Below, piece by piece: positions 11,355 through 61,178 of a stretch of 64,000 bases of DNA. The translations under genes were made by a program, and so were the position numbers. Source of the DNA: Bryum argenteum (taxonomy: Eukaryota > Streptophyta > Bryopsida > Bryales > Bryaceae); contig CM073327.1 of the NCBI GenBank assembly GCA_037043015.1, forward strand, positions 5,004,727 to 5,068,726. Direction: 5' to 3'. Below the pieces are notes generated by a model. It was given only the letters and a program-made list of their open reading frames with translations, searched no databases and was not told the origin of the DNA. Each line of letters opens with the position of its first letter. Within the stretch, counting starts at the first letter, position 1.

Positions 11355-12893
11355 ATGTCAGGAGCAGGAGCACGTACAGCACACGACTATCAACAACATG
11401 ATGATAGAGCAGGGCATGACCCAACCGAAAAGCCAACCAAGTCCAGGAAGAGCAAGAGTGTAAATCCTATCAATGACGAGCCGAATAAGAAGCTGGAAAG
11501 TTACTCATGCCGCTTCTGCGGAAAAAACTTTGAGAAATACCAGGGGCTTGGAGGCCACATAAACAAGCTTCACTACAAAGGTCCCACTCTCTATTCCTGG
11601 ACCAGTTTGTCGAGTATTCGTGTCTCTCCATTGTTTATCCTTTCCGGTGAGCTTTTCATTAACTTCCAAACGGTTTGCAGATCTTGACAAAGAGAAAGTA
11701 CAAAAAGCACATGAATTGTTGAACAAGCAGAAGCAACAGCAACTCTCGACCTGGCACAACTCACACCTGTAAGTTCGATCAGCATTCCTTGCTTTTAGAG
11801 AACTAATAATTATTAGGAGGTTCTGAGTTTCGCATATTGTCACTGACAGTTTTCTTGTTCATTCGTTGTGCATTTTTGTGACGGTCTAGCAGCAACTTTG
11901 GAGGGGGACTGGCAACAGGGATTGCTCCGGATCCGTATGCGCCTTCGGGGATAAGTAGACCGGTGCTGGCCACCGGCGATAGACAGGTGAGTTCATTACT
12001 CATCATTCTGATTACATAATTATTTTCTTTCAGAACATTCTTAGTGAATGAGTTTGCAACTCTTTCTACTCCGAATGAAATAATTACCGGTTCATTAATT
12101 TGGACATTGAACACGTCCGTCGATACCAATGTAGAGTTGTTGAGTCTGGGTTTTTGGTATGCATTTTGATAATTTTCCACTTCATTTGTTGATTTGGTAA
12201 TCATGACATCATGACTTCATGAGTCACTTGCAGGTGTCTTGGAAACACAGATCTAACAGGACAAATAGTCCGGCGGTGAATCAAGTGCCTGCCTCGGTGG
12301 AGAGTCAAGAGCCTACATCAATAACAGAGTTCAATAGTATTCCAGAGCATCCGGTTGCATCCGGAGATCAAATATCTCGGCATGCGAGACGCGGGATCCC
12401 GATAATTCCGGAACCAACCTTGGTGCTCCCGACTCCTGTGATTGAGGAGCCTCCTGAGCCAACATTCTTTGAGGAGCCTCCAGAGCCAACATTCTTTGAG
12501 GAGCCTCCAGAGCCAACATTCTTTGAGGAGCCTCCAGAGCCAACATTCTTTGAGGAGCCTCCAGAGCCAACATTTTTTGAGGAGCCTCCAGAGCCAACAA
12601 TCTTTGAGGAGCCTCCAGAGCCAACATCCTCTGAGGATTCACCGACAGACCTTCAATCACGATGGGACGAATACTTAGCGAACCATCCGGTACCAGTCGT
12701 TGTGGAGCCACCGACAGACCTTCAATCACGAATGGACGAATACTTCGCAAACCATCCGGTATCAGAGATGCCTCCTTTAGAAACCATTCAGTTTTTCTTC
12801 ACAGGAAGTTCGACATCGAATCCTGCTCTGATGGCCTTCGAACTTGCTGGCCCTTTCAGGACTGAGTTCTTGCAGTTTCGATTTCGGTTCTAG
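11355..12893 (+). CDS. Gene A: single-finger C2H2 (QALGGH-type) protein with Pro-rich tandem repeats
   Basis: Proposed exons are 11355-11580, 11681-11768, 11890-11986 and 12234-12893, which join in frame to 356 aa. Introns begin with GT and end with AG; donors 2 and 3 (GTAAGT, GTGAGT) are strong. Residues 51-73 form one C2H2 finger (Cys52, Cys55, His68, His73) with QGLGGH, a variant of the plant QALGGH helix, so a nuclear DNA-binding regulator is likely. Exon 2 is Gln/Lys-rich (KQKQQQLS). Exon 4 holds seven 9-aa repeats EEPPEPTFF, two copies of DLQSRxDEYxANHP and a Phe/Arg-rich end. I see no LxLxL-type EAR repression motif. The upstream block, TATA box, finger exon and exon 2 are shared with B, C and D. 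Function is inferred from the finger only, and the target is unknown. Confidence 0.75.
12444..12632 (+). repeat. Seven 27-bp tandem repeats inside exon 4 of gene A
   Basis: Seven head-to-tail 27-bp units, nearly identical, keep the reading frame and encode EEPPEPTFF (last unit varied). Gene B has only one full unit followed by a partial one at the same place. Confidence 0.95.
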
Positions 12894-12899
12894 ACATCA

Positions 12900-13240
12900 T
12901 AATTATGAGTGTACATAGATGCTATTAGTTGATTTTGAGTCTGCGGTTTCTGCCTCTTGTAATTTTGATCTTTCTGTAATTACAGAATGATCAAGTAACT
13001 ATTCGTTTCTGAATAGTGCAATTACTATAGTGACTCACGTGGCTTTGTGCATGATCATCAGTTTGGTTTCTCATGGAAAGTGGAGTTTTCAGTTCTAATT
13101 TTACTTTTGCAATTTCATTTTCGGTTCACCTTACAAAGGGATAGTGTTCAGTAGTTTATTATGTTCATTTCTGTATACGTTCTCCATTTGATTACTACAT
13201 GGCTACGGCATCAATCTCCATATTAAAGAAGGCAATTACA
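12900..13240. other. 3' flank of gene A
   Basis: Non-coding. It is nearly identical to the 3' flank of gene B (about 15330-15650), including 'ttttgagtctgcggtttctgcctcttg', so it is probably 3' UTR and downstream DNA carried with the gene duplication. Confidence 0.6.
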
Positions 13241-14230
13241 GATATAAGTGTACAAAACGTTGCCTCATTAGATTCCTCACTGGATTCCTATTTACTCCTT
13301 CACTAATTAAATCCAATTCCTCGTGTGGGGTTCTCCTCGTTTGCCCAATTCCTCGTTTGGGGTTCTTGTTCCGGCCATGGTAATGTCGGCCGTACATTCC
13401 AACGGCTGTATGCAGTTGACTAAGTACCGTAAGTACAAGGCTTCTGCTGGGTGATATAATCTATACTCTCCGTAAGGCAATTATGAATGATTCTGAACTG
13501 AGTTTCATACTCAATGCTTCCTCACTCCTTCCTCCGTCAGTCTGTGCATACTCCAGCAGACCCAAAACTTCCGTGAACAATGCTGGCTACAGGATTCATC
13601 CATTAGCTAACTTCGACCGAATCGATATACAAGAGTTCAAGGATAGTTTATGAGAGGCAGGGGTAAATCGTAGTGAACTGAATACGCAATGACGAAACCG
13701 TTGAAGCCCGGGCGAGCATAGGGAACCTCGTGGGTCAAACGTATAAACCCAAGCCACCGACAAATTAAGGACAGTCAGGTTAGTTCATCATTATATGATT
13801 CTATGATTATTTTCTTTCGAGATATCCTTATTGAATGTGTATGCAAGTCTTTCCACTCCGAATGAAACAATTACCGGTCCATGATTTTGGACATTGAACA
13901 CGTGCATCGATCCCAATGTGGAGTCATTGAAGCTGGGTATTCTGGTGTCGTCTGAGAAAGAAACGTGGCATACCCCTTCCCAAATTGTAGTCGTAAATTT
14001 AAATCTTACTGGTTTTGACTTTTGTCAAGATTATTGAGAATTGACTAACTTGATCCAAATGAATGATAATATAAATACACTAACTCAGCATCCTGTATTA
14101 GGGAGTAATGGTCCAAAATAACAATCTCGGGAGTTGGGCTACTGGTTTCCACCTTCGAGTGCATTTTTCATTACCCTCACTTCCCGAGGCATAACCCTAT
14201 ACATAAATAGAGCCCCGGATAAGAAAGATG
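13240..14230. repeat. Duplicated upstream block, copy 2 (in front of gene B)
   Basis: Nearly identical to 10070-11215, apart from short indels. Together with the shared 3' flank it shows that gene B is a tandem duplicate of gene A. Confidence 0.85.
14198..14209 (+). promoter_or_regulatory. TATA box of zinc-finger gene B
   Basis: TATACATAAATA, 178 bp before the start codon, in the same context as in gene A ('taaccc' before, 'gagccccggataag' after). Confidence 0.6.
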
Positions 14231-14375
14231 CTCATGATTGATATCGTATGTATGTGATTAAGTGCTGAAAGCTCATCCTCATCGTCAATACGAAGACGGA
14301 AGTGCTCCTGATGTCATCTCTTACTTTTGAGTGTTGCCTCTTGGATCGACTAGTAAGAGTTCGAAGTCGATCGAC

Positions 14376-15329
14376 ATGTCTGGAGCCCATACCGCACACG
14401 ACGATCAGCCGCATGATGATAGAGCAGGGAACGACCCAACCGAAAAGCCAACCAAGGACAGTAAGCACAAAAGTGAAGATCCCAACAATGACGAGCCGAA
14501 TGAGAAGCTGGATGGTTACTCATGCGTCCTCTGCCGAAGGACCTTTGATAAACGTCAAAGCCTTGGAGGCCACATGAAGAGTCATTACAAAGGTCCCACT
14601 CTCTTTTCCGGTTTGTCTAGTATTCGTATCTCTCCATTGTTGTTCCTTCCCCGTGAGCTTTTCAATAACTTCCAAACGGTTTGCAGAGCTTGACAAAGAG
14701 AAATTACAAAAAGAACTTGAATTGGTGAAGCAAAAGCAACAGCAACTCTCGACCTCGCACAACTCACACCTGTAAGTTCGATCAGCATTCCTTGCTTTTA
14801 CTTGTAGAGAACGAATATTAGGAGGTTCTGAGTTTTGCATATCGTCATAGTTTTCTTGTTCATTCGTTGTGCATTTTTGTGACGGTCTAGCAGCAACTTT
14901 GGAGGGGGACTGGCACCAGGGATTGCTCCGGATCCGTATGCACCGAATCAAGTGCCTGCCCCGGTGGAGAATCAAGAGCCTACCTCGATAACAGTGCATC
15001 CGGTTGCATCCGGAGATCCAATATCTCGGCATGCGAGAAGCGGAATCCCGATAATTCCGGAACCAACCTTGGAGCTCCCGACTCCTGTGATTGAGGAGCC
15101 TCCTGAGCCAACATTCTTTGCTGAGCCACCGACAGACCTTCAATCACGAATGGACGAATACTTCGCAAACCATCTGGTATTAGAGATGCATCCTCTAGAG
15201 ACCCTTCAGTTTTTCTTCACAGGAAGTTCGACATCGAATCCTGCTTTGGTGGCCTTCGAACTTGCTGGCCCTTTCAGGACTGAGTTTTTGCAGTTTTGGT
15301 TTCGGTACGAGCCATCATGGTTTACATAG
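14376..15329 (+). CDS. Gene B: single-finger C2H2 (QALGGH-type) protein, short paralogue of A
   Basis: Exons 14376-14592, 14687-14771 and 14891-15329 join in frame to 246 aa. The finger is Cys50, Cys53, His66, His70 with QSLGGH; its His spacing is three residues, against four in A, C and D. Exon 2 is Gln/Lys-rich. Compared with A, the sequence from 'PYAPSGIS' through intron 3 and the start of A's exon 4 is missing, so PYAP runs directly into NQVPAP in one exon and the frame is preserved. Only one EEPPEPTFF unit plus a partial unit remains, and one DLQSRMDEYFANH copy. The C-terminus ends WFRYEPSWFT rather than A's Phe/Arg end. It is probably a functional diverged duplicate, but expression is unknown. 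Confidence 0.75.
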
Positions 15330-15399
15330 ATGCTATAATTAGTTGATTTTGAGTCTGCGGTTTCTGCCTCTTGTAATTTTGATCTTTCTGTGATTACAG

Positions 15400-17870: not shown

Positions 17871-17874
17871 TCTC

Positions 17875-20360
17875 AAAACTCATTACTTGTAATCTTTACT
17901 AGATTCATTTGTACTTATTACTAGAATTTAAAGCTTTGAGTTAGTATATTGTAATCTTTAAGGACAAGATGGCATGCAATAATGAGGTATTAAGAAAAAA
18001 ATGTAGGACGATCTTACGATGTAAGAATGTGGTGGACAATAGAGTAGGTCAAAATTTTCAAAAATATGCAAAGTAGATATATATAGATATAACATATTTA
18101 TAACATATTTGTTCTCAAAACCTAAAACATCACATAATCTCAACAATAGACCTTTTGCAATGAAAAACTCACCAAATGCAGAAATACTTACCTTCATTTT
18201 TGCAACACTTCTAAGAAAAGAAAAACCATAAAAGAGAAAATTCTAGATCTAATGATTTGGAAGGAGCCTCAACTCCATAAACTAGAATAAATTCCCGGGG
18301 ACCTAATCCAAGTAATTTCATTCAAATTGGACTGGGGATGAAGAAATTATGGGTCTTCAAAGTTGTTGCTTGTCGTCTTAAACAACTAAGTAACAACCAA
18401 CTTAAGTGTAAAGGAAATAAAGTCCTTGTTTCAGTTTATGTAAGATACAGACTGAGGGTTTTGACTAGGTTGAGTTTTCAAGCTTTGTAGATTTAGAGTT
18501 ATCCTTCACTTTTAGATCATAATATATAGAAAGTTTGATCATATTTTGTCTTGAACAAACGTCTTCAACAATGTCCAAATGGTTTTGAAATATTGATTTA
18601 TACCTTGTACGCTTAAAGAGATCTTTTTTTTCTTCAGATTTCCTAACTCATGACATGACTACATGAGTCACTTATAAGCAAGCAGTGTGCCTAGTTTCAA
18701 ACTTAATAATTCTTCACCTATTCATTTGATGACTGTACATACTTAATAATGCGACCTAGTACACTACATTTCTTTTGTTTGAGCTTTTATTTTATATCTA
18801 ATTTCTCAATATTAAGAGGTTGTGTACCATGGTATTATTGAAGCTAGCTCTCTAAAGCACATCAATCATGATTTGAATTACCCATACTAGGTAATTAACA
18901 CATTTATTTGCAGGCTTGTCTACCTTCTATCCTTAATTGTACAAATTTTACCTCCATTATAATTATATATGATATTTCTCTTGACTTCAATTTCTTGATT
19001 ATGGGTTCTTTCAAATAGATTAAAACCCTCCTATTGTTACACTAGGCAAACATACCCACTAGGCTAACATACCCACTAGGCTACCATACCCTCTATGATA
19101 TCACATGTTTGGAATCTTGACATGTGACATGTAGAGAGTGGCAAAGTAAAATTGCTATTGGCGATTCTAATCCTTGGAATACACTCATAATATGAATATG
19201 TAAGGATTGTGACATAAGGATCTGAGTGAGTGTATCCTTGATCATATAAGCAATATGCTGAAACCCTTTTTAAGTCACATTTGATTACATTTACATTTGA
19301 GGTGATTGTATACTAGAAATTAAGGTTGAGGTGGACATTTCTAATTGACCATTGTTCATAAATCACACTCTCAAGGCTCAATGGTAATGTATACAAACGT
19401 TGCCTCACTAGATTCCTCATTGGATTCCTATTTACTCCTTCACTAATTACATCCAATTCCTCGTGTGGGGTTCTCCTCGTTTGCCCAATTCCTCGTTTGC
19501 CCAATTCCTCGTTTACCCAATTCCTCGTTTGGGGTTCTTGTTCCGGCCATGGTAATGTCGGCCGTACATTCCAACGGCTGTATGCAGTTGACTAAGTACC
19601 GCAAGTACAAGGCTTCTGCTGGGTGATAATCTATACTTTCCGTAAGGCAATCAAGAATGATTCTGACCTGAGTTTCGTACTCAATGCTTCCTCACTTCTT
19701 CCTCCGTCGGTGCATACTCCAGCAGACCCAGAACTTCCGTGAATAATGCAGGCTAGATTCATCCCTTCGTCCGACTCGACATACAAGAGTTTAAGGATAG
19801 TGTATGAGACGAAGGGATAAAATCGTTGTGAAGTGCATACGCAATGACGAAACCGTTGAAGCCCGAGCAGAAGAAACCTCGTGGGGCGAACGTAAAATCC
19901 CAAGCCACCGTCAATGGACAGGTTGTATGATTATTTTCTTTCAAAATATCCTCACTGAATGTGTAACTTTGCAACTCTTTCCACTCCGAATGACACAATT
20001 ACCGGTCCATGATTTTGGACATTGAACACGTGCATCGATCCCAATGTGGAGTCATTGAAGCTGGGTTTTTTGGTTTCGTCTGAGAAAGAAACGTGGCATA
20101 CCCCTTCCCAAATTATTGTAGACAAGTCGTAAAATTTAATCTTCTTGGTTTCGACTTTTGTCATATTTTTGAGAATTGACTAACTTGATCCAAATGAATA
20201 ACAGAAACACACTAACTCAGCATCCTGTATTAGGGAGTAATGGAAAATAACAATCTCGGGAGTTGGGCTACTGGTTTCCACCTTCGAGTGCAATTTTCAT
20301 TACCCTCACTTCCCGAAGCAAAACCCTATACACAAGTAGAACCCCGGATAAGAAAGATGC
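17875..20360. repeat. Duplicated upstream block, copy 3 (in front of cassette X)
   Basis: Collinear with 8334-11215 from 'cattacttgtaatcttta' to 'aagatgctcatgatatc', where the match stops abruptly. The TATA region has decayed to 'tatacacaagtaga' (about 20328). Confidence 0.85.
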
Positions 20361-20529
20361 TCATGATATCACTCTTAGTTGAAAATTGATATTATTGTCT
20401 GATGTACTCTACAGGTACCAGCAGCCGCTTACATCAATCCCCATGTCGAGATACCAGATGCCTACATCACGCACATCACCTTGAATGCGGAAGAGTTAAG
20501 TGGTGTACATTCCAGTGACCAACACTTAA

Positions 20530-21069
20530 GTGGCCAGCATAGGCTCAAGCAACCAGCAGCAGCAGACTGGAGGCTCAACATTCCTCCGCCATGAAAACCC
20601 GTTTCCAGACTATGAGTTCACTCCAGAACAAGAACAAGAGCTTTTGAGTATTCTCGGAGGCATCACGGGTAAACCGCATAATCATTCGGCAAGGGGGAAG
20701 CGCCCAAGGGTAAGACCAAGTCGCTTACAACAGGTGAAATACATACAATCATCAACAATGTCATGTTACTCATGCAGAATCTGAATTGTACTTACGGTTT
20801 GGGATGGGAGCAATGTGCAGGTTATACCCGAGTTTGAGTATCATGGGGAGATTCCAGGTCCTCGTGTTCGTGCTGAGGATACATTCGTGGAGCCATCAGA
20901 CGAAAATACCGTTCCTAGAGTGCCATTGAGCAAATCCGATCCCGAGGAGTCATCAAGTGAGCCGGAAAGTGGTGATCGAATCCTCCGGGAGGACTTCGAA
21001 GAGCAACTGACAGGATCCTACAACAAGGAAGAAAGGGAAGTCTTCGGGGGAGGCGAAGTCCAAGTCTAG
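20530..21069 (+). CDS. Cassette X: unrecognised acidic two-exon coding sequence behind a zinc-finger promoter block
   Basis: Two open segments, 20530-20733 and 20821-21069, join in phase across an 87-bp intron (CAG|GTGAAA ... TGCAG|GTT) to about 150 aa. The first has a Gln run and the stretch FPDYEFTPEQEQELLSILGG; the second is strongly acidic (DPEESSSEPESGD). The true start is unclear: a TAA lies in frame just before 20530, and another frame (about 20416-20590) is open upstream, so an upstream exon or a frameshift is likely. I recognise no domain. Its upstream DNA is copy 3 of the zinc-finger upstream block and its downstream flank matches that of gene B, so it replaces the zinc-finger coding part. 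It could be a pseudogene. Confidence 0.4.
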
Positions 21070-21154
21070 TTAGAGAAAGTATACCAGGCGAGCCGAGGAG
21101 CATGACATGTATGACAGTAGCAACCGGCACCGTACAATAAGCTTTGAAGCATGA

Positions 21155-21382
21155 ATGTTGATTAAAAGCTTTGCTAGTTATGTATCTAAATGTGATGGAT
21201 GTTCAGTCTACACAGTTGAGGAAAACCGGGGTCCTCATGTGATTGCTGTAGATGGTTTCAAGGAGGCACGACTTGATACGTATCAAGAAGTTCGATTGTC
21301 ACCTTCATTCCAAAGACGAATGTCGATGATAGCGATAGCAAAACTTGATGAGGAAGCACTCATTACTCAATTGGTTCGGTAA
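21155..21382 (+). CDS. Hypothetical 75-aa open frame after cassette X
   Basis: The open frame begins at an ATG and has mixed composition without low-complexity bias (contains YVSKCDGCSVYTVEEN). It lies between cassette X and the flank shared with gene B. It could be a further exon of X or of an inserted gene fragment. I see no recognisable family. Confidence 0.2.
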   Translation: MLIKSFASYVSKCDGCSVYTVEENRGPHVIAVDGFKEARLDTYQEVRLSPSFQRRMSMIAIAKLDEEALITQLVR

Positions 21383-23208: not shown

Positions 23209-23209
23209 G

Positions 23210-28094: not shown

Positions 28095-29370
28095 ATGGCT
28101 CCTAGAAGGTCTCGTGCTGAACGTGAGTTAGTTGTCCAGATGCATGAGAGAGAGACTACGTACATTGAAATTTCAGTGGTTTTAGGCATCCCTCGAAACA
28201 CTTGCCATGCTATTGTACAGAGGTTTACAATGAGAGGTCATTTGAGAGATGCTCTTTCATAACGGAGACCTTGAATTCTTGATGAATGTGGTGATCGTAT
28301 GGTTGTAAGGTTGTTGAATGCACCAACTAATGGTACAGCTGCAGCAATGGGTATAGAAATGCGATCTCAAGGATTGGATTTGAGTGATGATACAATTAGA
28401 AGATGTCTTCAGAGGCAAGGATTGAGAGCACGAGTGAAAACTAAGAAGCCATTCTTGTCAAAAAAGCACAAAGCACATCGATATGCATGGGCAAAAAAGT
28501 GTAGGCATGCAAGTTGGATGGATTGGAGTTATGTGGTTTTCTCAGATGAGTCAAAATTCAATTTATTTGGCTCAGATGGGAGGCAGTATTTTTGGAGGAA
28601 GAGAGGAGAGCATCTTTTAGATCAACATGTGCAACCAAGATTGTCATATCGGGCGTGTTGAGGCAATCGGGCGGACAAAACGGACGTACGAGTTGTCCCG
28701 GACGGACGGGCGTGCCCGCCCACCTTGATAGTAGGAGGCGTGTAATTTTTTCATGGGTAAGAAACTTTGCAGTAAAAAGCCACGTAGGATGTGACGTGTA
28801 AGTCCATCGTGGCATCGGGGCGGGTGAAATTGTGCCATGGCGGATGAACTTTTGTTAAGGCGGGTGAACTTTTTAGGGGACGGGTGAACTTTAGAGGGGG
28901 CGGGTGAACTTTTGAGGGGGCAGGTGAACTTTGGTGGCGGAGCGGGTGAGGGCCAGTACAACCTACTATCAAATTTGGAGGTGGAAATATTATGGTTTGG
29001 GGATGTATGACTTGGGAGGGAGTTGGCAACCTTGGTCTTATACAAGGGACTATGGATAAGTTTCTATATCGTGAAATTTTGGAGATGGAACTCATGAATA
29101 CTATATACATGCATGATTCAGGAGAGGAGAACGTTATTTTTCAGCACGACAACGATCCCAAACATACTTTTAAGTATGTTACAGATTGATTGTTAGCACA
29201 GAAGTTTCAACTAATTTGGCATCCGCCTCAATCTCTTGACTTGAATCCTATAGAACACCTTTGGAATGAAGTAGATCGTCATATGAGAATGTCGGAGAAG
29301 AAACCCACTAACAAGAAGGATTTGTGGGAGAAATTGGAAGAAATTTGGTATAGCAAACGATGGTAGTCAT
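28095..29370 (+). pseudogene. Tc1-like transposase (DD34E), disabled
   Basis: The frame starts at 28095 with a helix-turn-helix region (RRSRAERELVVQMHERET; IPRNTCHAIVQRF). The DDE core is present: VVFSDESKFNLF (first Asp), VIFQHDNDPKHT (second Asp) and LDLNPIEHLWNEVDR (Glu), with exactly 34 positions between the second Asp and the Glu. It would insert copies of its element at TA sites. It is dead: TAA and TGA codons interrupt the HTH linker (near 28259-28275), a TGA replaces a probable Trp near 29187, a 319-bp MITE splits the core after HVQP, and the C-terminus is truncated (EIWYS runs into KRW-stop, with remnant GSHYDC-like codons after). Plant mariner-like transposases are typically DD39D, so this type is unusual here. 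Confidence 0.8.
28637..28955 (-). mobile_element. hAT-type MITE inserted in the Tc1 transposase
   Basis: The first about 150 bp match the reverse complement of the right part of the 56698-57032 element ('tagttgtcccggac', 'gcccaccttgat', 'catgggtaa.aaactttg'). It is flanked by gtgcaacc and gtacaacc, an 8-bp target duplication with one mismatch. Removing it restores the transposase frame (HVQP-TIKFGG). The right end has lost its inverted repeat and contains five or six copies of 'gggcgggtgaacttt'. Confidence 0.8.
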
Positions 29371-29840: not shown

Positions 29841-31440
29841 TCAGTGAGCAGACTTGGCGATGGCAATCTGGTCGTTCACCCTGACGATCGGACCGTCACA
29901 AGGAGGGGAGCCGGAGGGGAGAGGCTCTGCTCCTGTGAAACGTTCGATGGCTCCGGATTCGAAAATTATCACCACGGCTGACCCGCCGTAGCCAAACCAC
30001 CCAATATCGTCGCCTTTCTGGACATGGTCGCCAACCTTCAGGCCGTCTCGGATGCGTACGGAGGAGATGTCGGTGATGCCAATGGGCATCATGCACACAG
30101 TGCCAATCGATCTATTGTCCGCGGCGATGAACACCAACTTGCGATGATTCACGGCTGTATAGTAAACTTGCGATTCAGCAAGATCCATGTTGTCCCCCAT
30201 CGGCTCCGGTACGCTGAACAGCAGCCCATTGGGCGGTGTGACTATAGCTTCCACCGTCCCATCCACTGGCGCATGAAAGTGGTGGTACATATGGCTGTTC
30301 AGGTACGTATGGAACAAGTCCCCTCCCTTAAAAACGTCGACGTAGGATTTCTCTGTTCAACCTAAAAGAACCTCATCATTTGTTTGATAACGAAGACAGA
30401 CCCAATGTGAAGTTGTTAAAATTATTTTGCTTGTACGATGAACTTGCAATGAAAAGGATCCGTTGATTTGATAACATCGAGGTTTCTGAGCTGTGAAAAG
30501 GAATGCTGGGAAGTGTTTTGGATACGTACTCGTTGTGGGTGACGTGTTTCCAGCGAAGATGTCCACAAGTGAGTATCGCTCGCCTTTGAGCCAAAACGGC
30601 TGAGACGCCTGCAGATCGCGTGCGACCGCCATCAAGTACCCGTCGTTGGTAGACACGATCACTCTGGGGTCGTTCGGTTCAGCAACCGGCCGGGCCGATC
30701 GCTTGATGACGCGGTGGAAGAATGCGTTGTAGGATGAGAAGCCTCCATGCGGCTTCTCCATGTCCAGTTCGTATTCCCAGAGTTGGTAGTCCTGAAAAGC
30801 GGACTCTGACAACCAGCCGCACTCGTCCTTCGTCAAGACCTTCGCACTGTCGGGGCTGTCTAGGTAGGCGCACCATTCCTGCAACCACAACCACAGCAAC
30901 AGTTTCTACATTTCAGAAACACAAACTGATGGACATTTCGAAGTTAGGACCACATTCTGTTCGACGAAAAGGTGGTCGATGCGAAGGTAAAGTTCGTGAC
31001 AGTACCTTCAAGACGGCTCGCATGGCTTCGTTGAAAGTGTAGTCGCGGAAGACATGCATCCCTGCGGTCGTGCCCATCATATACGCAAAAAGTTCCCACA
31101 TCGGGAACACGTGGCACCGGTTGGGGTCGGGGTGATACTCAGGGGCGGTGACGACGACGGTGGCAAGATGCTGCAGCATTTGCTCGATGTCCGTCACGAC
31201 CTTGTGCTCGTCGGCAACCTGGTCGATCATCTCCGTGACGTACATGCGGAAGATTGGATCTGAGTAGATCAGCTCCCGCAGCTTGTTGACGGCCGGGCTT
31301 GACTTGGGATCGACCAACCTGCCTTGCGATTGGAGGCTCCTGTGCCATTCTGTGATGCATGATAGATCCGGTGGCAAGTAGCCCGCCTGGTATCCGAATG
31401 AGTTCTGGTAGCGCGCCTCCTGCAATTTCTCATCCACCAT
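29841..31440 (-). CDS. Phosphatidylserine decarboxylase-family protein
   Basis: Three exons (31006-31440, 30530-30878, 29841-30352) with GT/AG introns of 127 and 177 bp join in frame to 431 aa, near the usual size for the family. Residues about 20-145 match the N-terminal PSDC-type domain (SPAVNKLRELIYSDPIFRMY; FRDYTFNEAM). Residues about 190-431 match the PS decarboxylase domain: catalytic His region YHHFHAPVDG (about 284-293), and FGYGGS with Ser about 386 at the expected self-cleavage point that generates the pyruvoyl group. These proteins decarboxylate phosphatidylserine or related amino acids, and the substrate of this two-domain class is uncertain. No signal peptide or membrane segment is seen. 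The 5' end is uncertain: an acceptor-like TTGCAG precedes the ATG and an in-frame QSNG lies upstream, so an earlier coding exon is possible. No disabling lesion is seen. Confidence 0.85.
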
Positions 31441-31449
31441 CCCATTGCT

Positions 31450-32685
31450 CTGGCTGCAATGCGATCAACGCGGCATCAGCATATCATTCAGGGATTAGCG
31501 TATCTGCTTTAATTTCTTATTGCCATTTCAATCACCATACCTGTAATGTTCAATCGCATCATTTAAGCTCGTCTTCAAGTCTACAAACGTTTGTTTCTTG
31601 ACTTCCACTGAACAAAAATGGCCAGGGTTACGAGAAAGCTCCTCTTAAACACCATCTGAATCGCCGACTAAACTGCCTACCACACAAAAGTTGAGAAGTT
31701 TGCAACCTTTGATTAAATTTGCGAATGTCATACTCAGGGGCAATCCACACGGGCCGCAACGGCAACCAGCTGTTATGTGCGATTGGCTGACGCTGTTGAT
31801 GGTTTGCCACACGGTGGGCAGACCCGGAGCGGCAACTCTGACGTGGCCTGGCAGAGAGCCCTTCCAAAACTTCCTTCCAAAACTTCCAGGCGCTCGACGC
31901 TGGAAGCCCGAGTTTGGCGGGCGCTATCACCAATGGCTGCCTCCCCGCCCTTTTGAATCCCAGGCGCGGCGCGACTTCCCTCCTGCGACCTGCAGCGCGA
32001 CCTCGCGACCTCGGTGCCTGCGGCTGCCTCTCCCGCCCGTCTGCCGCCCGTCTTCCAGCTCTACTCTAACCCTAGCCTTTGCAACCTCTGCCGCTGCCCC
32101 CGTGTGGATTGCCCCTCAGACACAATTGTAAACAGAACAAAGCAATACATACCAGGTGCTTCAACCTCCTTGCCATTCGAGTCACTTCTTAACTTCGCCT
32201 TCTCTGCGATCCCCTCATTTCTGCAACCAATGGGCCGGTCAACAGAATCAATCACTGACAAGACACAAGAGTTCGACAAGATCGTTAATTTGCATCTACA
32301 CAGAACTGCAAACGAGGAAAAGGGACGATCGACAATGGGCCCAATGCAAGAAAGTCGATTGTACTCTAATGCGTGCTGTACTGCAATTAGCTTCTCGACA
32401 AGTGGAGGCATTGTTGCGTGTCCTCCCGCTAGATACTTCGTGCTTGGATACCCTGGGATGCACGCACAACCAAAGTCCTTGTGAACATGTGCGCGCGGGT
32501 TTTAAACCTGGAACTTCGGAGCCCATTACGGTTATGAGGAAGTTCGGAAGATGATTTTGGATGAAAAATTGTTGTCTATCGTTCCGGTATCAGATTTCAA
32601 ATTCATTCATTGGACACTTTGTGTCTGCTTAGATCGATCAATGAGACGTTATTCAGTGTACTATGAATCTCATACGCTTCCTAAA
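31450..32685. other. Upstream region of the PS decarboxylase gene
   Basis: GC-rich at 31740-32130. The minus strand carries GGCTAGGGTTAGAG (near 32065-32080), a telo-box-like motif common near plant transcription starts. The open frames here (31691-32131, 32014-32484) have no recognised family and are probably incidental. Confidence 0.4.
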
Positions 32686-44850: not shown

Positions 44851-44879
44851 TGATATTAGGAAAACTTGTTTGTTATTAA

Positions 44880-45762
44880 CCCCTAACTCTCCTTGAAGCC
44901 CGAAATGGGTTTTTGCAGTTCCGGGCAGCCTAGATGAAGGCGTTAAAAGTAATATTTTTGCCTAAGAATTTTATCGGGTCCTCCTTATACTGCAAAGTGT
45001 ATGTGGTAAAATTTGCAAAGTCAAATTCCAATTTTTGAGTCTTCTAGGACGATCCTTGGGTTGCGAGCCGAGATGGGGCAGCTCAAAAAAGTAACATTTT
45101 TGAATTTTTTTTTTGGAAACATGATCATTACTAAATCACTACTCACATTTCAGAGTGACTCAAGTCAAAAAGTTTACCAATTTTACAAGGGCAGCCTTCA
45201 AAAAAAATTTGGGAGCTTGAAACCTCAAAACTGAAATTCTCTACCTCTTAGCACTCGTGGGGGTGTAAACCGATTTCTTTTCTTTTTTTGAAACTTCCAA
45301 CCGTAAGATCTTGTACCTGAGAATATGCTTGATTACTCTTCAAAAAATTGACCGTTGGATGTTTACCATTTGAGAGATCATAACATCCAAAGTTTGTCTC
45401 CCAAGTTTTTTTGGGTATTGCGAAGATTGGTTTTAAAATTTTTGGAGACTGCCCTTGTAAAATTGGTAAACTTTTTGACTTGAGTCACTCTGAAATGTGA
45501 GTAGTGATTTAGTAATGATCATGTTTCCAAAAAAAAATTCAAAAATGTTACTTTTTTGAGCTGCCCCATCTCGGCTCGCAACCCAAGGATCGTCCTAGAA
45601 GACTCAAAAATTGGAATTTGACTTTGCAAATTTTACCACATACACTTTGCAGTATAAGGAGGACCCGATAAAATTCTTAGGCAAAAATATTACTTTTAAC
45701 CCCTTCATCTAGGCTGCCCGGAATTGCAAAAACCCATTTCGGGCTTCAAGGAGAGTTAGGGG
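44880..45762. mobile_element. TTAA-flanked foldback element with 330-bp arms
   Basis: 44880-45210 and 45435-45762 are near-perfect reverse complements, separated by about 220 bp. Ends CCCCTAACTCTCCTTGAAGC and inverted equivalent abut TTAA on each side (44876-44879, 45763-45766). No long open frame spans it. Transcription would give a long double-stranded RNA stem. Confidence 0.92.
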
Positions 45763-45769
45763 TTAATAA

Positions 45770-48162: not shown

Positions 48163-49500
48163 CTATTCCCACACAGATGCACATATATGTTTCTCGTAAG
48201 AGACGTGCAATGGATTTGGTGCAATGTGGTCTGAAAGGTGATGATAGATCTTCTCTTCGACCACCTCGTCTGCCAAATCGTGCTCGTGGAACGTATCCCT
48301 CATGGGCTCATTCTGGAATGCAAAAGCAGCTTGCGGCACACCCGAATTCATGAAGAATTCTTGAATGTTGTTACTGTCTTGATTGGACTGCGGATTGCCC
48401 TGAATCTGTCCCAGGCTAGTGCCCAAAGAGTCGGACTCTATTGTGAGATATGGCGAGGTCCGAGCTGACATCTCTTCGATCATCTCTTCAATCATCTCGT
48501 GCGTCATACTCTGATTGGGCATGGGCCCGTTCGGAAGGCCATTAGCATGTTGCAGCACATCAAAATTCATGTTGCTCTCGTGGTTGGAATGTGAATTGCC
48601 CGGAATCGGTTCTAAATGATTGCCCAAAGAGTCGGACTCCATCGTGGAAGTGAGATACGGCGAGGACGAGACTGACATGTTGACTTGAGCTAACGGTACA
48701 TACGAACCCATGTTCCTATCCTCACTCCGATGCAAATCCTCATGACTGTGTTGCTGGTGAATACCGGAGTTGGACTCCGTCATGTAGTTGGGAGTTGGAA
48801 AGGATCGGAATGGCATGTTGAAGTGATCGAGTCCAACTGGGTTGTGGTTGTAGTAGGCGGTTGAGTTATTCAACGGCAATGCATCAAAAATAGGCACCGG
48901 ACAAGTCATCCCCAAAGGAGGCCCAGACGGATCCGGAGCAATCTCTGTTGCCAGTCCCCCTCCAAAGCTGCTGCTAGACCGTCACAAAAATGCACAAAGA
49001 ATGTCAAACAGAAAACTCTGACGATATTTATGCGAAACTCAGAACCTCGTAAAATTAGTTTCCTAAAAGCCAGGAGTGCTGATCGATCTTACAGGTGTGA
49101 GTTGTGCGAGGTCGAGAGTTGCTGTTGCTTTTTCTTTTTCACCAATTTCTGTGGTTTTTGTGATTTCTCTTCCTCATGCTCTGCAAACCGTTTGGAAGTT
49201 AATGAAAAGCTCTCCGGAAAGGAAAAACAATGGAGAGACACGAATACTCGACAACCTGGAAAAGAGAGTAAGACCTTCGCTGTGAAGCTTGCTGATGTGG
49301 CCTCCAAGCGCCTGGTACTTCTCAAAGTTTTTTCCGCAGAAGCGGCATGAGTAAGTCTCCAGCTTCTTGTTCGGCTCGTCATTGTTGGGATTTATACTTT
49401 TATGCTTCCTGGACTTGGTTGGCTTTTGGGTTGGGTCGTTCCCTTCTCTATCATCATGTTGTTGATCGTCGTGTGCTGTATGTGCTCCGGACATGTCCAT
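48163..49500 (-). CDS. Gene C: single-finger C2H2 QALGGH protein with alternative C-terminus
   Basis: Exons 49275-49500, 49093-49180 and 48163-48973 join in frame to 374 aa. The start MDMSGAHT is the first ATG of the conserved exon, with an internal Met two codons on. The finger is Cys52, Cys55, His68, His73 with a canonical QALGGH. Exon 2 is Lys/Gln-rich (KKKKQQQLS, a possible nuclear localisation signal). Exon 3 starts like A's (SSFGGGLAT) but then runs into a 250-aa Asn/Ser/Met-rich region unrelated to A and B (NSTAYYNHNPVGLDHFNMP; MIEEMIEEM; ADEVVEEKIYHHLSDHIAPN). Compared with D it has one SFPTxNYM unit instead of seven. Likely a nuclear regulator by finger type; the C-terminal role is unknown. 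Confidence 0.75.
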
Positions 49501-50183: not shown

Positions 50184-50189
50184 ATTGAG

Positions 50190-52485: not shown

Positions 52486-52489
52486 GATA

Positions 52490-53088: not shown

Positions 53089-53096
53089 TGTATTGC

Positions 53097-53676
53097 TCAA
53101 GTCTCGTGTGCATTGTGAAATCGAGAGCTTCACGGTTTCATTATATTTCCTTAATGCTCAAGCACCCAAAATTCACCCAACTCCAAACCCAAATAAATTG
53201 AGATTGGAAGACTTCTATTAATTAACACCAAAAACATCTGCACAATAAAGTGAAATCTGTTAACATGGCCCAATATCACGCCAAGTAAAGTTTTGGTAGC
53301 GTCCTCAACATGCAAAAGCTGAAATTCAAGTATCACAAAAGTTCTAATCTCATAAAGATAATTTGCAAAATCTTGATCTTCTACTCATAGAAATGCGATG
53401 CTGGTCGGGGACAACACTGATTTGACTGCTCAACTCATTTCCCTAACCGTGGTTGTAAAACGAGGTTTCTGTTGGCTCGTTCTCAACTGCAACTTTCAGA
53501 TAGTGTTACATTTAAATCTATTTCTTGGTCCTCATTCCAACGCGAATTGCATGTGAATGCCAGAGCCGGACTCATGGACTTCAGGTTCTGCAAGGGCGGG
53601 ATGAGATTTTGCAAGGGCAGGACGAGATTCTGCCGGGGGATGAGATCTTGCAAGCTGAAATGTTGAGGTGTTGCTC
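53097..53676 (-). pseudogene. Duplicated 3' tail of zinc-finger pseudogene E
   Basis: A tandem repeat of 53677-54230: 'gtgcattgtgaaa', 'cccaacttcaaacccaaata', 'gtaaagttttggtagcgtcct', 'ccctaaccgtggttgtaaaacgaggttt' recur in order. It contains the 3' UTR motif and the start of the C-terminal exon on the minus strand, without finger exons. Confidence 0.7.
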
Positions 53677-55029
53677 GAGTCATGAGTGCATTGTGAAAGC
53701 TTCACGGTCTTATTATATTTTCCTTAATTATGCTCAGATCCCAAACTTCACCCAACTTCAAACCCAAATACATTGAGATCGGAACACCAAAAACATCTCC
53801 ACAATGAAGTGATATTTGTAAACATGGCCCAATACCACGCCTAGTAAAGTTTTGGTAGCGTCCTTGACATGCAAATGCTGAAACTCATGTATCACAAAAT
53901 TTCTAATCTCATAAAGATTCGCAAGATCCTGATCTTCTACTCATAGAAATGTGATGCTGATCGATGACAACACTGATTTCACTGCATAACTCATTTCCCT
54001 AACCGTGGTTGTAAAACGAGGTTTCTATTCTAGGCTCGTTCTCAACTGCGCTTTCAGCTAGCGCTACATTTAAATCTATGTCCTCATCCTCATCCCAACT
54101 CCAATTGCCTAATACCTGTTCCATGTGAATGCCGGGATTGAACTGTATCATGGAGTTGAGGTTCTGCTAGGGCGGGACGAGAGTCTCCGAGGGCGGGACG
54201 AGGGACGGGATTCTTCGAGAGCAGGACGAGATTCTCCGAGGGCAGGAAGAGATTTTCGAGGGCGGGACGAGGTTCTGCGAGGGCGGAACTGATATATTGA
54301 AGTAAGTAAGTCCCGTCTGGTGGTCGTAGTAGTAGGGGGTGGGTATTCAACGGCCACACACCATATGCAAGCATTGGAAAAGTTGTCCACATCGGTGCAG
54401 ATGGATTCTGAGCGATATGTTCTGCATCTGCAGCAGACTGAGTGTGTCGCTAGTCCCCCTCCAAAGCTGTTGCAAAACCGTCACAAAAATGCAGAGGAAA
54501 TGAAAAAGAAAACTATGAGGACATGCAAATCATAACTTCCTATCACTTCACCAAAAGCAAGCTAAGGGTGTTGATCGAACTTACAGGTTTGAGCTGTTCT
54601 GGGCACAGAGATGCTTGTCGGTTGTGCTTTGCCAGCAATTCATGTGCTTTTTGGAATTCCTCATTCTTACGATCTGCAAAGCGTTAAGAAGTTAGTGGAT
54701 AGATCACCGGAACAGCAATGGGGGAGATAGGAGCACTGTCTCACCGATAGGAGAGAAAGGAACATTGGCTGTGCGTATTCATGTGGCCCCCAAGAGCTTG
54801 CGACTTGTCAAAGACCTTGCCTCACAAGCGACATGAGAAAGTCTTTCCGAGCTTCGTATTCGGTTCATCGTTGGGATTTTCATTCTTGCTCTTCCTCGAC
54901 TCCGCTTCATCTTGTAGCTGAGGGCCGGGTGCTATTGGCTCCCCTTCAACTTGTAGTTGATCGCCAGGTGCTGCAAGCGTTCCATCATGCATGTAGCTGA
55001 TTGCCGGGTGCTCCGTTCGCTCCTGACAT
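53677..55029 (-). pseudogene. Gene E: degenerate zinc-finger paralogue
   Basis: The first exon (start about 55029, MSGANGAPGNQLH) shifts frame after about 14 codons. Read on in the next frame it contains three GAPGxQLQ-like repeats, then KTFSCRL-stop-GKVFDKSQALGGHMNTH. The TGA (54822-54824) replaces the second zinc-binding Cys. An exon-2 equivalent (QKAHELLAKHNRQ) ends in a good donor, but the exon-3 acceptor TCTAG seen in the other copies has become TTTTG. The C-terminal part is replaced by a 'gggcgggacgag' minisatellite (54165-54290). It is therefore non-functional as a finger protein. Confidence 0.75.
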
Positions 55030-55477
55030 GACGATTGTCGTCAAACTCTAGCGATCCAAGAGTGACGCTCAGCTGCAAGTTCACTAGCGATTCCCTCTTG
55101 TTCCTGGCTACGACGCTGAGAGCAGACACAAAAGTCCCCAACATAAGCATTTCCCAGCCTCCATGTTTATTTATGTGTTTCGAATGTAAATATCTATTTT
55201 CATATTATTGAATGTGTAAGTTTACCTTTTGGATACTTTACATGAAGAGTTGAACACATTGTGCGGCCGAAAAAATTCCTCTTAATAAGTTAATATATGA
55301 TTAGTCCATCTTTCAAAATATCTTGAATGTACGAATTACATGAGAAGAAATTTTCCCATATTAAGGTTCCATGGTCAACTTCACCCCTTAAGTGAAGCTT
55401 TTATTATTAGCGTTAAGAAAACCAAAGGCTCTTGACGAAAGCTAACCAAAGGCTATCACGTGCATAGACTTTTTGTA

Positions 55478-55780: not shown

Positions 55781-55859
55781 GTAGTTGAGTTTTTAAGTCA
55801 ACTTTATTAGTCATTAAGAACCCTTAACTCCTAATTATCCTTCACGAAGTTTTAGCTAA

Positions 55860-56690: not shown

Positions 56691-56697
56691 GTAAAAT

Positions 56698-57032: not shown

Positions 57033-57049
57033 AGTAAAATAAGGCGGAA

Positions 57050-58610
57050 ATGTGCGAAGGTGGGGAGGAAAATAAAGACTCATTGTATATTGAAGAGTCA
57101 TGAGGCAACGAAGAATGATATCACGACAACGTAATTAAATACAATTTTTAACCTTATATACAATTTTAATTGTGCACAAATTAATATATAGTGTTCCATG
57201 GGGTAGTTGATATAGGGTCCCGTGTAGAGTGTCTCACCCCAAAAAGAAGACCCCCCTCTAATTGCGCACATCTTTTTATGGTCAGTCTTGGAAATGTGTT
57301 GTGTAAAAACTAGTGATGAAATCTCATGAACATTCCAATAAAGTACTTAAATAATTTGACACTTTTTGATTTGCACCTTGTTAGAGTGTCTGGAATAGTC
57401 CTTACACCCAAATACAAGACCTGGACATCTCACATTGTCCGGTTTAGCATGACTTCAGGACTCATCTAGACGAGATAATTATCTAATATTTTCCGGATTT
57501 TCGGTGTGGATGTCTATATACATGTAATGATGAATATTTTGTAGCACTTGATTATACGTAATTGACTATTTAATTGTATCATAAGTTCTATATCATGATT
57601 CAAATAAAGTCATGTTTCCTTGATTTCCATAGAATAATCTTTATAAAGGCAAGAATCTTGGGTGCCCGCCTTTAGGTAGGTGCCCGCCTTTAGGTGGTTT
57701 CACCACAAAGATGGTTTTGGCCCTAAAATTTTAAAAATTACTTCATATAAGGATTTGCATGAAAAAAGGGCTATTTCAGTTCTAGTTTTGAGTCTAGTTC
57801 TAGGGTGCAGTTCCCGTTCCGGAAGCCCTGGGGTACCCAAACCTGACCAACACCCATTATTATTATTATCTATTATTTAAGGCAGGGAGTTTGTTTTCGT
57901 TTTTTTTTTGGATACATGTGACATAATGATCTCGGGAACTACCTATTGGATTGTGCCGCATGAGGTGTTGTCAAGAGCGGATTTGTATAGAATCATGGAA
58001 AACAATCATCTCGTGAATCGATAGATTCCCGAATATTGAATTATTAAGTAATTATGGCTCTCAAATTACTAAAACTTACTATAATAATCTAATTTTATAT
58101 TGAGGAGAAAAACAAGAGAGGCATCATCAAAGTATATAAGTGGGAGTGGCAACATTGCAAAGGCATACTAGTCTATTATCTCAAGACAGGTAGTTATTTT
58201 TTGTATTCTTTTGTTTTTTTTTACCACGCCCACTTGAGTACTTTGACCATGCCCCTCTTGTTTTTTAGCTAGATTTAATATTAGGCTCTTTTGATTCAAT
58301 GGTGATTTAGGTACATAATTACTCAAAAATTTAATATCTTGAGATCTGTTGACTATTATTTCTTTTTGTTTGTTTTGTATGCCCGCTTGCATACTCGTAT
58401 ATAATTATATCAAATGGATTCTTAAGAAAAGTTTGATTCTTTATATAGGTATGGTGATAAAATACAAAGGTTAAAGTTTCATAATAAGATTGGGATATGA
58501 TTTTTTCTATAGTCAAATAATAGGATGCATTACTTAAGAATCTCAATGAAAGCTTATGCAAAAACAATTAAGTACTAATATGATTTTTTTGAATAAGTAC
58601 CCCCTTTTCC
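57050..58610. other. AT-rich intergenic DNA, nothing recognised
   Basis: Contains a 21-bp near-direct duplication 'gggtgcccgcctttaggt' (57659-57695). No gene is recognised. Confidence 0.45.
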
Positions 58611-58614
58611 AATC

Positions 58615-59290
58615 GATCCTTGAACGCCCAAGGGGGGTCTTGAGCCTAGACACATAGGCTTTTGCAAAGAGTAATTAAAGAAATTGAAGGCAAGCCATCT
58701 AGATCTCAACCGTATAATCTTGTATTTCACTTCTTTTAGGTCATGTAAATCAAATTTGGGGTCATGACGCCTCATGGATTGCAAGCTCGTAACATGTTGG
58801 TACTCAAAAAAGGTCACCGAATTTCAGCATTTATATTTCAGAATATATCTCAACAAACAAATTGCAATGAAAAATTCACCAACTACAAAGTTGTTCAAGC
58901 TTATCTCATAAACACTCTTGTACAAAAAAGAGTCATCAAATAAATTTCTTGCCTCAAATAAAAGCCTTGCAAGGGTGAAAATTGCCAAAACATTTACAAA
59001 GAAAAAGGGACCAAATTTACACTGCTTGCACTCAAATTCTTGTCTTATTTTCAAAACACCTTGAATTGGGCCAATATTTTTACCACTTAAACAAGACTCA
59101 ATTTGAGACCTATTCCAATTAACAAAGTTGAAATCCATTGGTGGAATGGTGGATGAAGGAGACATAGCTCCTCAGAATCATCCAATTTTTCACTTTTTTC
59201 ATTGGAGAATTTTTTTAAGAATTCGCTACCAAAAGTACTTGAATCAAAAATCTTCCAACTACAAAATTGTTTGAATTTATTATAAAACTA
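58615..59290. repeat. Partial copy of the 42978-43949 TTAA element
   Basis: Begins near 'ccttgaacgcccaagg', like the element's left end, and follows its interior ('agatctcaaccgta', 'gcctcatggat', 'caaataaaagccttgca', 'cacttaaacaagactcaatttg'). No right end or TTAA is visible. Confidence 0.6.
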
Positions 59291-59299
59291 TGTCTGTGT

Positions 59300-59670
59300 T
59301 AAATTTTCTCAGATATAATTATCTGTAGTTTTGTATAATAGGCTTAATATTATGGATATACAAAAGATACATTTCAATCACACAACATACATGCAACGAA
59401 GCATAATTATACGTATTTTGGCGAAAGCTAAAATGTCCAGTTTCACAATGTCAAGAGTCATGAGAGCACCTTACCTCGAAGGTTGCAATTTGTACTATTG
59501 ACACATCACAACATAACGAGACCGTAGTGCCAAAAAGTGTTTGAATTGGAGAACATCAAAAACATTTCACAATAAAGGGAAAATTGTAAGCAGGGCCTGA
59601 TAGCACACCAAATGAAGTTTCGGTAGCGTCCCTGAAATTCGAAAGCTGTAAATTTATGTATCACAAGCAA
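59300..59670. other. 3' flank of gene D
   Basis: 59560-59640 holds the conserved 'aacatttcacaataaaggg ... caccaaatgaagtttcggtagcgtcc' region shared with genes C and E, probably 3' UTR. Confidence 0.5.
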
Positions 59671-59673
59671 TTC

Positions 59674-61178
59674 CTACACAGATCTACATATCTTTTTCTC
59701 GTAAAAGACGTGCAATGGATTTGGTGCAATGTGGTCTGAAAGGTGATGATAGATCTTCTCTTCGACCACCTCGTCGGCCAAATCAAGCTCGTGGAACGAA
59801 TCCAGCATAGGCACATTCTCGAATGCAATAACAGCTTGAGGCACACCCGAATTCACGTTGTTCCTGTCTTGATCCGAATGCGAATTTCCCGGAATCTGTC
59901 CCCGGTTAGCGCCAGAAGAGTCGGACTCCTTCATGGAATTGAGATATGGCGAGGTCCCAGCTAACATCTCTTCGATCATCTCTTCGATCATCTCGTGTGT
60001 CATACTCTGATCGGGCATCAGGGGCCCGTTCTGGAGGCCATTAGCACGTTGCAGCATATCAAAATTCATGTTGCTGTCCTGGTTGGAATGTGAATTGCCC
60101 GGAATCGGTTCTAAATGATTGCCTAAAGGGTCGGACTCCATCCTGGAAGTGAGATACGGCGAGGACGAGACTGACATGTTGAAGTGAGCTAACGGTACAT
60201 TATTCACATTCGAATCCATGTTGCTATCCTCGCTCCGATGCACACTGTAAGGAATATGTTGCTGGTGAATACCGGAGTTGGACTCCGTCATGTAGTTGCG
60301 AGTCGGAAAGGACTGGGCTGGCATGTAGTTGCGAGTCGGAAAGGTCTGGGCTGGCATGTAGTTGCGAGTCGGAAAGGACTGGGCTGGCATGTAGTTGCGA
60401 GTCGGAAAGGACTGGGCTGGCATGTAGTTGCTAGTCGGAAAGGTCTGGGCTGGCATGTAGTTGCGAGTCGGAAAGGACTGGGCTGGCATGTAGTTGAGAG
60501 TCGGATAGGACTGCGCTGGCATGTTGAAGTGATCGAGTCCAACCGGGCAGTGGTTGTAGTAGGCGGTTGAGTTATTTGACGGCCATGCAGCATAAGTAGG
60601 CACCGGTCTACTTATCCCCGAAGGCGCATACGGATCCGGAGGAATCTGTGTTGCCAGTCCCCCTCCAAAGCTGCTGCTAGACCGTCACAAAAATGCACAA
60701 CGAACGTCAAACAGAAAACTCTGACGATATTTATGCGAAACTCAGAACCTAGTAAAATCAGTTTCCTAAAACCCAGTAGTGCTGATCGAACTTACAGGTG
60801 TGAGTTGTGCGAGGTCGAGAGTTGCTGTTGCTTTTTCTTTTTCACCAATTTCTGTGGTTTTTGTAATTTCTCTTCCTCATGCTCTGCAAACCGTTTGGAA
60901 GTCTCATCGGAAAGGATAAACAGTGGAGAGATACGATTGCTCGACAAACCGGAAAAGAGAGTAAGACCTTCGCTGTGAAGCTTGCCGATGTGGCCTCCAA
61001 GCGCCTCGTACTTCTTAAAGCTTTTTCCGCAGAAGCGGCATGAGTAAGTGTCCAGCTTCTTGTTCGGCTCGTCATTGTTATGCGTCCTGGACTTGGTTGG
61101 CTTTTGGGTTGGGTCGTGCCATGCCCTATCATCATGTTGTTGATCGTCGTCTGCTGTATGTGCTCCGGACATGTCCAT
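59674..61178 (-). CDS. Gene D: single-finger C2H2 protein with 11-aa repeat array
   Basis: Exons 60968-61178, 60796-60883 and 59674-60676 join in frame to 433 aa. The finger is Cys47, Cys50, His63, His68 with YEALGGH, so the first residue of the QALGGH signature is changed to Glu at the Q position. Exon 2 is Lys/Gln-rich. Exon 3 begins SSFGGGLATQIPPDPYAPSG and continues SRPV exactly as A's exon 3 does, then switches to the C-type region. It contains seven 11-aa repeats MPAQSFPTRNY (about residues 150-225), where C has one, and the same C-terminal MIEEMIEEM and EEKIYHHLSDHIAPN blocks. C and D are close sisters; role inferred from the finger only. Confidence 0.75.
60301..60531 (-). repeat. Seven 33-bp tandem repeats inside exon 3 of gene D
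   Basis: Head-to-tail 33-bp units with only scattered single-base differences. The reading frame is kept (11 aa per unit). The near-identity suggests recent expansion. Confidence 0.95.

Follow-up and report, generated by a model that had tools for sequence, protein, structure and literature searches.

How does a gene for a single zinc finger come to be present, within one cluster, with two entirely different C-terminal regions? The question is raised by a 64,000-nucleotide stretch of the moss Bryum argenteum (GenBank assembly GCA_037043015.1, contig CM073327.1, here C7, positions 5004727-5068726; the whole stretch is referred to as the window). A preliminary description of the window had noted four finger genes, A to D, that agree in promoter, finger exon, exon 2 and the start of exon 3, and whose proteins part after the residues SGISRPV, one tail being common to A and B and the other to C and D. 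Having compared the window with the complete 258.8-Mb assembly (25 contigs), we read the region as a cluster of single-zinc-finger genes interleaved with an unrelated family, here termed H, in which two of the finger genes, A and B, are predicted to carry an H tail in frame. On the predicted models, A and B are a well-resolved example of an already known route, the fusion of two genes in one frame. No description of these genes was found in the titles and abstract openings of the open-licence PMC papers listed by literature searches.

One finger front, two unrelated tails

Four open finger-gene models were recovered at the places given in the preliminary description: A at 11355-12893 (+), B at 14376-15329 (+), C at 49494-48163 (-) and D at 61172-59674 (-), with predicted products of 363, 251, 380 and 436 amino acids, respectively (Table 1; the C model uses the donor at 49247). 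Each product contains one C2H2 finger, the exact QALGGH motif being present in C only; in a Pfam scan covering A, B and D, the finger scores stayed under the curated cut-off in all three. The claim that exon lengths sum to whole codons holds in so far as an open model exists for every gene, with the qualification that A needs an extra intron (11987-12233, giving four exons) and C an alternative donor or the skipping of exon 2. In an all-against-all blastn comparison of nine regions, the match of A with C was unbroken from 10946 to 11966 (83% identity) and that with D from 9607 to 11966 (82%), bearing out the common promoter, finger exon, exon 2 and exon 3 start. Because the A-D match begins at 9607, these two loci also have an upstream stretch in common. 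The constant front is thus real but longer than had been noted, with A, B, D and a further gene, E, also holding about 0.9 kb of family H.

Past position 11966 the tails of the two pairs are unrelated. The preliminary description had named tails that are homologous but diverged as the result that would speak against it, and no such homology was found. The best BLASTP match between the A and D tails had an E-value of 3.1, and a profile-profile comparison of A/B with C/D gave a probability of 0.04%. In Smith-Waterman comparisons against 500 shuffles (20 pairs in total), the score was reached by 391 shuffles for A vs D, 235 for B vs D and 133 for B vs C; A vs C, reached by 10, was the sole nominally low value of the four tail pairs. 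Searched separately, each tail returned relatives of its own. The A/B tail had at least six matches in its own genome (all such counts given here are lower bounds), namely B, A in three pieces, the family H gene H1 and a gene on C10, and the Smith-Waterman scores confirmed this kinship (z 10.7 for A vs H1, 13.6 for B vs H1 and above 21 for both against the C10 gene; 0/500 shuffles each). The C/D tail had at least four matches: D in two pieces, C, and A over the common start only. In other data, P0001 was identical to D exon 3 in 223 of 308 aligned columns, gaps counted, and P0010 was 88-90% identical to the A tail (from a protein search that scored the 7989 candidates with most words in common); both are open, and both were compared over the tail.

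The tails also differ in make-up: A consists of 18% Pro and 15% Glu and B of 15% Pro and 11% Glu, whereas C and D contain 10% Asn and 11-12% Ser. Pfam revealed no known domain in P0001, P0010 or E, and a sub-threshold match of H1 to a phage protein was taken as low-complexity noise. AlphaFold2, run on P0010 with A, B and the C10 gene, gave no confident fold for the A/B tail (mean predicted local distance difference test score, pLDDT, 53.7). Each tail type has its own coding repeat in one copy, an in-frame minisatellite of 27 bp in the A tail (12442-12637, 7.3 copies) and one of 33 bp in the D tail (60289-60524, 7.2 copies).

The parent of the A/B tail adjoins the window

Family H comprises a 5' region, a short exon starting with MTKP, an intron and a Pro/Glu-rich exon, and is devoid of a finger exon. 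Its member H1 (region L031, from 1859 downwards, minus strand) has the full build; H2 (region L032) is alike but truncated. Both are placed between the finger genes G, F and D, to the right of the window, and had been overlooked as the parent family of the tail. In minus-strand sense the order is G (finger), H2, F (finger), H1, D, the degenerate copy Cx and C, so that finger and H genes alternate on the right side; A, B and E form the left end of the cluster in the opposite orientation. The preliminary description had likewise missed H as the source of the far 5' region in A, B, D and E. The H 5' stretch of locus A (10073-10742) had at least nine own-genome matches. These represent six loci, namely A, B, D, E, H1 and H2, and all fall within 5.0148-5.0805 Mb of C7. 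For the finger promoter (10946-11354) at least five matches were found (A, B, C, D and E), and for the finger exon at least twelve, seven of them on C7 (A, B, C, D, Cx, F and G) and five more distant ones on C8. On C10 the finger exon found no match.

The order of elements in locus A is therefore H 5' part, finger gene, H 3' part, and both junctions can be placed. At the first, H sequence runs up to ...AAACGTGGCAT (10944) and is followed by the finger promoter from ACCCC. At the second, A equals D through ...AGTAGACCGGTGC (A 11966, D 60600), D retaining PYAPSGISRPV up to the very base at which A switches. From there A reads TGGCCACCGGCGATAGACAG followed by GTGAGT, the terminal part of an H exon 1 and its donor. 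The reading frame is that of H (LATGDRQ aligned beside ATDTDNGQ), and A 11969-12158 matches D's own H segment at 61782-61615 (blastn). B is without 11944-12277 of A (334 bp), so both SGISRPV and the H intron are lost from it, PYAP being directly followed by NQVPAPV; C reads PSGPPLGMTCPV at the corresponding place. The switch after SGISRPV, as originally proposed, is hence a common one for A and D only. An assembly artefact was considered and judged unlikely, since four loci (A, B, D and E) show the H-to-finger junction and two show the finger-H fusion.

As to which tail came first, the C/D tail looks like the older, ancestral continuation of the finger gene, with support that is real but short. 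Directly past the junction, D 60594-60521 matches F (blastn E 1e-6), and the 3' flank of D matches Cx (E 2e-21). The D tail score was reached by 1/500 shuffles against G. Comparisons with the distant C8 finger genes were less uniform, the score being reached by 0/500 shuffles for D and for G and by 25/500 for C. For the other tail type, A vs G was reached by 479 and B vs G by 308 of 500 shuffles, and A and B vs C8 by 33 and 295, respectively. Since the C/D tail continues weakly into F and G and the A/B tail matches H1, the former would be old and the latter acquired. The preliminary notion of a constant DNA-binding module joined to exchangeable tails stands as regards the constant finger module and its two unrelated tails; "exchangeable" overstates the case, as the data fit one tail replacement.

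Two deletions in a tandem array as the probable origin of the fusion

Building on the anatomy, the junctions, the H genes beside the finger genes, the dissimilarity of the tails and the frame constraint visible in the sequence, we infer the following order of events and consider it probable. At the outset, H genes and single-finger genes with a JAGGED-like finger and exon 2 would have alternated along a tandem array. One deletion would have joined H intron 1 to the finger promoter, creating the front that is also found in B, D and E. A second would have joined finger exon 3, just past SGISRPV, in frame to the last codons of the next H exon 1. The finger gene would thereby have acquired H intron 1 and the H tail exon, and its protein a new C-terminus. 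C and D would have retained the ancestral tail, A and B would go back to one fusion, and B would be a copy of A that later lost the 334 bp. Transcription and splicing of the fusion genes would then follow the models.

The two H pieces flanking the finger gene in A speak for two separate deletions. The inner H intron of A differs from the upstream one by a Jukes-Cantor (JC) distance of 0.218, whereas the upstream introns of B, D and E lie at 0.042, 0.082 and 0.055 from that of A. A small tree places the inner copy outside the upstream clade (support 85) and separates it from H1 and H2 (support 100). The flanking pieces thus belong to different lineages, and two deletions in an H-finger-H array would therefore explain A. 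Recombination or conversion appears to have gone on in the array as well. In the finger promoter, four-gene site patterns supporting AB/CD, AC/BD and AD/BC number 1, 2 and 3; from exon 1 onward they number 29, 2 and 2. The exons of D group with C (support 100), whereas its promoter lies at JC 0.091 and 0.084 from those of A and B and at 0.209 from that of C.

Constraint and decay among the duplicates

The reading frames look constrained. Between the pair members A-B and C-D, 12 of 13 coding indels are multiples of three vs 5 of 24 noncoding ones (Fisher p 3.5e-5), the coding exception being the 1-base shift at the C donor. Noncoding rates would predict 6.9 frame-breaking indels in the C-D tail exon and 6.7 in the A-B coding sequence, and none was seen, a test that is partly circular because the models were chosen open. 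In simulations without selection, a stop was gained in 86% of D tail exons at 5.5% change; at 3.3% change the corresponding shares were only 55% for the A tail and 39% for the B tail.

Several observations weigh against our reading. The ratio of nonsynonymous to synonymous change (dN/dS) was 0.48 for the A-B tail (bootstrap range 0.19-1.18), 0.94 for the C-D tail (0.60-1.62), 0.62-2.19 for six front pairs, every range spanning 1, and 0.55 to 1.09 for three MTKP-exon pairs. It was not significantly below 1 in any of the eight front and tail comparisons, and as all ranges include 1, purifying selection is not demonstrated. In C, the donor orthologous to GTTTGT is shifted by 1 bp and the frame is broken; it is restored by a non-orthologous donor at 49247, or by skipping exon 2 with the orthologous donor. 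Decay is common in the array, since F, G, Cx, H1, H2 and E all appear truncated or broken, the tail exon of both F and G being interrupted by a stop. That the C/D tail is ancestral is based on short matches: C vs G was reached by 15/500 and C vs C8 by 25/500 shuffles, and the C/D profile met the C8 tails with a probability of 5.7% (profile-profile). Finally, the appearance of two lineages could also have been produced by gene conversion between upstream units.

Some of these points would also follow if the cluster consisted mostly of decaying duplicates and the frames of A to D were leftovers without a functional fusion protein. Such an account would take in the dN/dS intervals, the displaced donor of C, the truncated or interrupted F, G, Cx and H2 and the frame-shifted E. 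Against it stand the missing frame-breaking indels, the stop expected in most simulated D exons (the A and B tails being less telling) and the open relatives of both tails in other data, P0001 and P0010. We therefore regard pervasive decay as unlikely, though the strongest of the competing explanations.

Insertion, capture and homology as alternatives

Rather than by deletion, locus A might have arisen if transposition or template-switch repair placed a finger gene inside a single H gene and about 190 bp of H were duplicated at the target. This would account for the H segments on both sides of the finger gene (10769-10914 and 12009-12154), which are 84% alike. The flanking copies should then be sisters, yet the inner one lies outside the upstream clade at more than twice the distance of any upstream copy, and in D the H-to-finger junction occurs without the other one. 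Insertion is hence improbable. We give still less credence to capture and joining of the gene pieces by a transposable element of the Helitron or Mutator-like (MULE) type. The window does contain inverted repeats and a piece of a Tc3-like transposase (28275-28658, +; PF01498, E 1.8e-15), but the matches to the H 5' region and the finger promoter were all found within about 66 kb of one chromosome, no search aimed at element ends having been made. That the two tails are homologues that merely diverged can practically be dismissed, since against the single low A vs C shuffle value stand the other three tail pairs, the negligible profile-profile probability, the matches of the A/B tail to H1 and C10 instead, and the abrupt end of the DNA match of A with D or C at 11966. 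The two-deletion origin set out above thus remains the reading we favour.

Gene E and further features of the region

The same front occurs before a third gene family. Gene E, which had also been overlooked, is a further chimera in which the H 5' region and finger promoter are joined to this family. It departs from the finger promoter at 20370. For three of the four relatives compared, the third-family match starts at 20367-20369; for the remaining one it starts at 20410. Cx, a fifth finger copy within the window that had escaped notice, is closest to F and G. The latter are located at about 5400-7100 (-) of region L031 and 5400-7000 (-) of region L032, respectively, and each contain, beyond the stop in the tail exon, a DEDEDIDLNVAL stretch, which we take to resemble an EAR motif. 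H1 is without the GTTAGT donor of A, and its tail has in-frame stops relative to that of B. The C10 gene piece (region L037, 5080-5364, -) carries the C-terminal block of the A/B tail.

Elsewhere in the window, two open stretches at 29844-31464 (-), in its most G+C-rich part, match phosphatidylserine decarboxylase (PF12588, E 5.5e-23; PF02666, E 2.5e-22). A 24-bp tandem array of 13 copies at 411-721 is open in several frames, and a 246-nt inverted repeat (44873-45118 and 45524-45769) is 98% complementary with a spacing of 405 nt. Rfam returned nothing at gathering scores.

Table 1. Predicted features of the finger/H cluster within the window.
Feature	Position	Strand	Remarks
H-family 5' region before locus A	10073-10667	+	blastn A vs H1 10188-10903, 68%; likeness to D reaches left to 9607
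H exon 1 (MTKP exon) in locus A	10668-10751	+	open, phase 0 at GTTAGT donor (translation)
5' part of H intron 1, locus A	10752-10944	+	alignment with H1, H2, C; H-to-finger junction 10944/10945
Finger-gene promoter and leader, locus A	10945-11354	+	TATA-like TACATAAATAG from 11181; also in B, C, D, remnant in E
Gene A exon 1	11355-11604	+	finger C-x2-C-x12-H-x4-H, QGLGGH
Gene A exon 2	11681-11768	+	gene model
Gene A exon 3	11893-11986	+	finger-gene sequence up to 11966; remainder is the end of an H exon 1, LATGDRQ region in frame
Gene A intron 3 (H intron 1, second H copy)	11987-12233	+	A 12064-12265 matches H1 1730-1531
Gene A exon 4	12234-12893	+	Pro/Glu-rich tail of the H family, containing 27-bp repeats
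H-family 5' region of B	13255-13972	+	MTKP exon from 13689 broken, stop after 10 codons
Gene B exon 1	14376-14610	+	finger, QSLGGH
Gene B exon 2	14687-14771	+	gene model
Gene B exon 3	14894-15329	+	finger-gene start joined straight to H tail at 14944/14945; without A 11944-12277
Gene E H-family 5' region	19395-20097	+	MTKP exon 19844-19921
Gene E finger-promoter remnant	20098-20370	+	blastn, own-genome match
Gene E body, third family	20371-21340	+	relatives C7:7.27-7.41 Mb; frame-shifted against relatives (by eye)
Gene C exon 3	48163-48970	-	ancestral-type tail (putative)
Gene C exon 2	49093-49180	-	gene model
Gene C exon 1	49248-49494	-	finger, QALGGH; donor at 49247 required for frame if exon 2 kept
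Cx, degenerate finger-gene copy of F/G type	~53158-55391	-	TGA within finger match
Gene D exon 3	59674-60673	-	common start to 60600, then ancestral-type tail (putative) with 33-bp repeats
Gene D exon 2	60796-60883	-	gene model
Gene D exon 1	60950-61172	-	finger, EALGGH
Gene D finger promoter	61173-61586	-	blastn, own-genome matches
H-family 5' region before D	61587-63007	-	altered MTKP exon near 61842-61768

Relation to known systems

Among described fusion genes, those of Type I in Oryza come closest. Both of their parents are detectable, and of the 35 cases reported, 2 have their parents located in one region (Zhou et al., 2022; PMC9199173). Here, too, the parts stem from separate genes, the finger part matching C, D, F and G and the tail matching H1 and the C10 gene, and separate parents are present in the same genome, C and D with their own tail and H1 and H2 without a finger exon. 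As in the Oryza cases so described, two genes were joined in one frame after duplication and relatives of both parents persist. The present case differs in that both parents take alternate places in a single array, the successive stages D, A and B are still to be seen, the far 5' front comes from the tail's own family, and the fusion is predicted from sequence. In Drosophila yakuba, tandem duplication has shuffled regulatory regions and exons into chimeras (Rogers et al., 2017; PMC5460883). Tandem rearrangement likewise builds chimeric genes there; those cases are population variants with RNA-seq, whereas ours are older copies that would have arisen by deletions between alternating families.

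The finger itself points to a land-plant host, as do the named hits of a profile search, which are plant proteins. The search returned JAGGED-related (E 1.2e-15), JAGGED-like (8.4e-13) and STAMENLESS 1 (2.4e-10) proteins, much of this signal probably being carried by the four better conserved C8 paralogues included in the profile. According to a passage of a review (PMC6164605), QALGGH-class fingers have no report outside plants. Like JAGGED and STAMENLESS 1, as portrayed in excerpts of PMC6164605 and PMC8836172, the proteins have a single C2H2 finger, apparently of the QALGGH class, followed by a similar charged segment. Unlike these, A to D are without an EAR motif (neither LxLxL nor DLNxxP is found in the four proteins), QALGGH is altered in A, B and D, and the tails are other ones. 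One passage on JAGGED-type proteins (PMC8836172) states that the EAR motif was not conserved among 13 homologues.

Possible consequences of the proposed tail replacement

The arrangement of locus A would also permit a bolder interpretation. Its MTKP exon is open and, through the phase 0 GTTAGT donor, would read into exon 4 in the frame of the fusion; the exon is broken in B, and no H tail was found behind D. Locus A might thus be two-headed, with a far promoter yielding an H-type protein (10668-10751 spliced to 12234), an inner promoter yielding the finger-H fusion, and one tail exon serving both. The array would then act as a generator that sets the H 5' region and finger promoter before the gene's own tail (D), an H tail (A, B) or a third family (E). 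We regard this as doubtful; if true, it would raise the case above an ordinary fusion gene.

For the finger proteins themselves, the replacement would mean that the finger was kept while an Asn/Ser-rich tail was swapped for an acidic Pro/Glu-rich one, by which the regulatory output presumably changed. The cluster offers a legible case of a transcription-factor-like protein gaining a new tail, with relatives of the parents, D, A and B all in one place: D would represent the first junction only, A the fusion and B its trimmed derivative, with an uncertainty of a few bases at the junctions. Provided that A and B are expressed, they would allow a direct comparison of the effect of a tail swap on a near-constant finger module.

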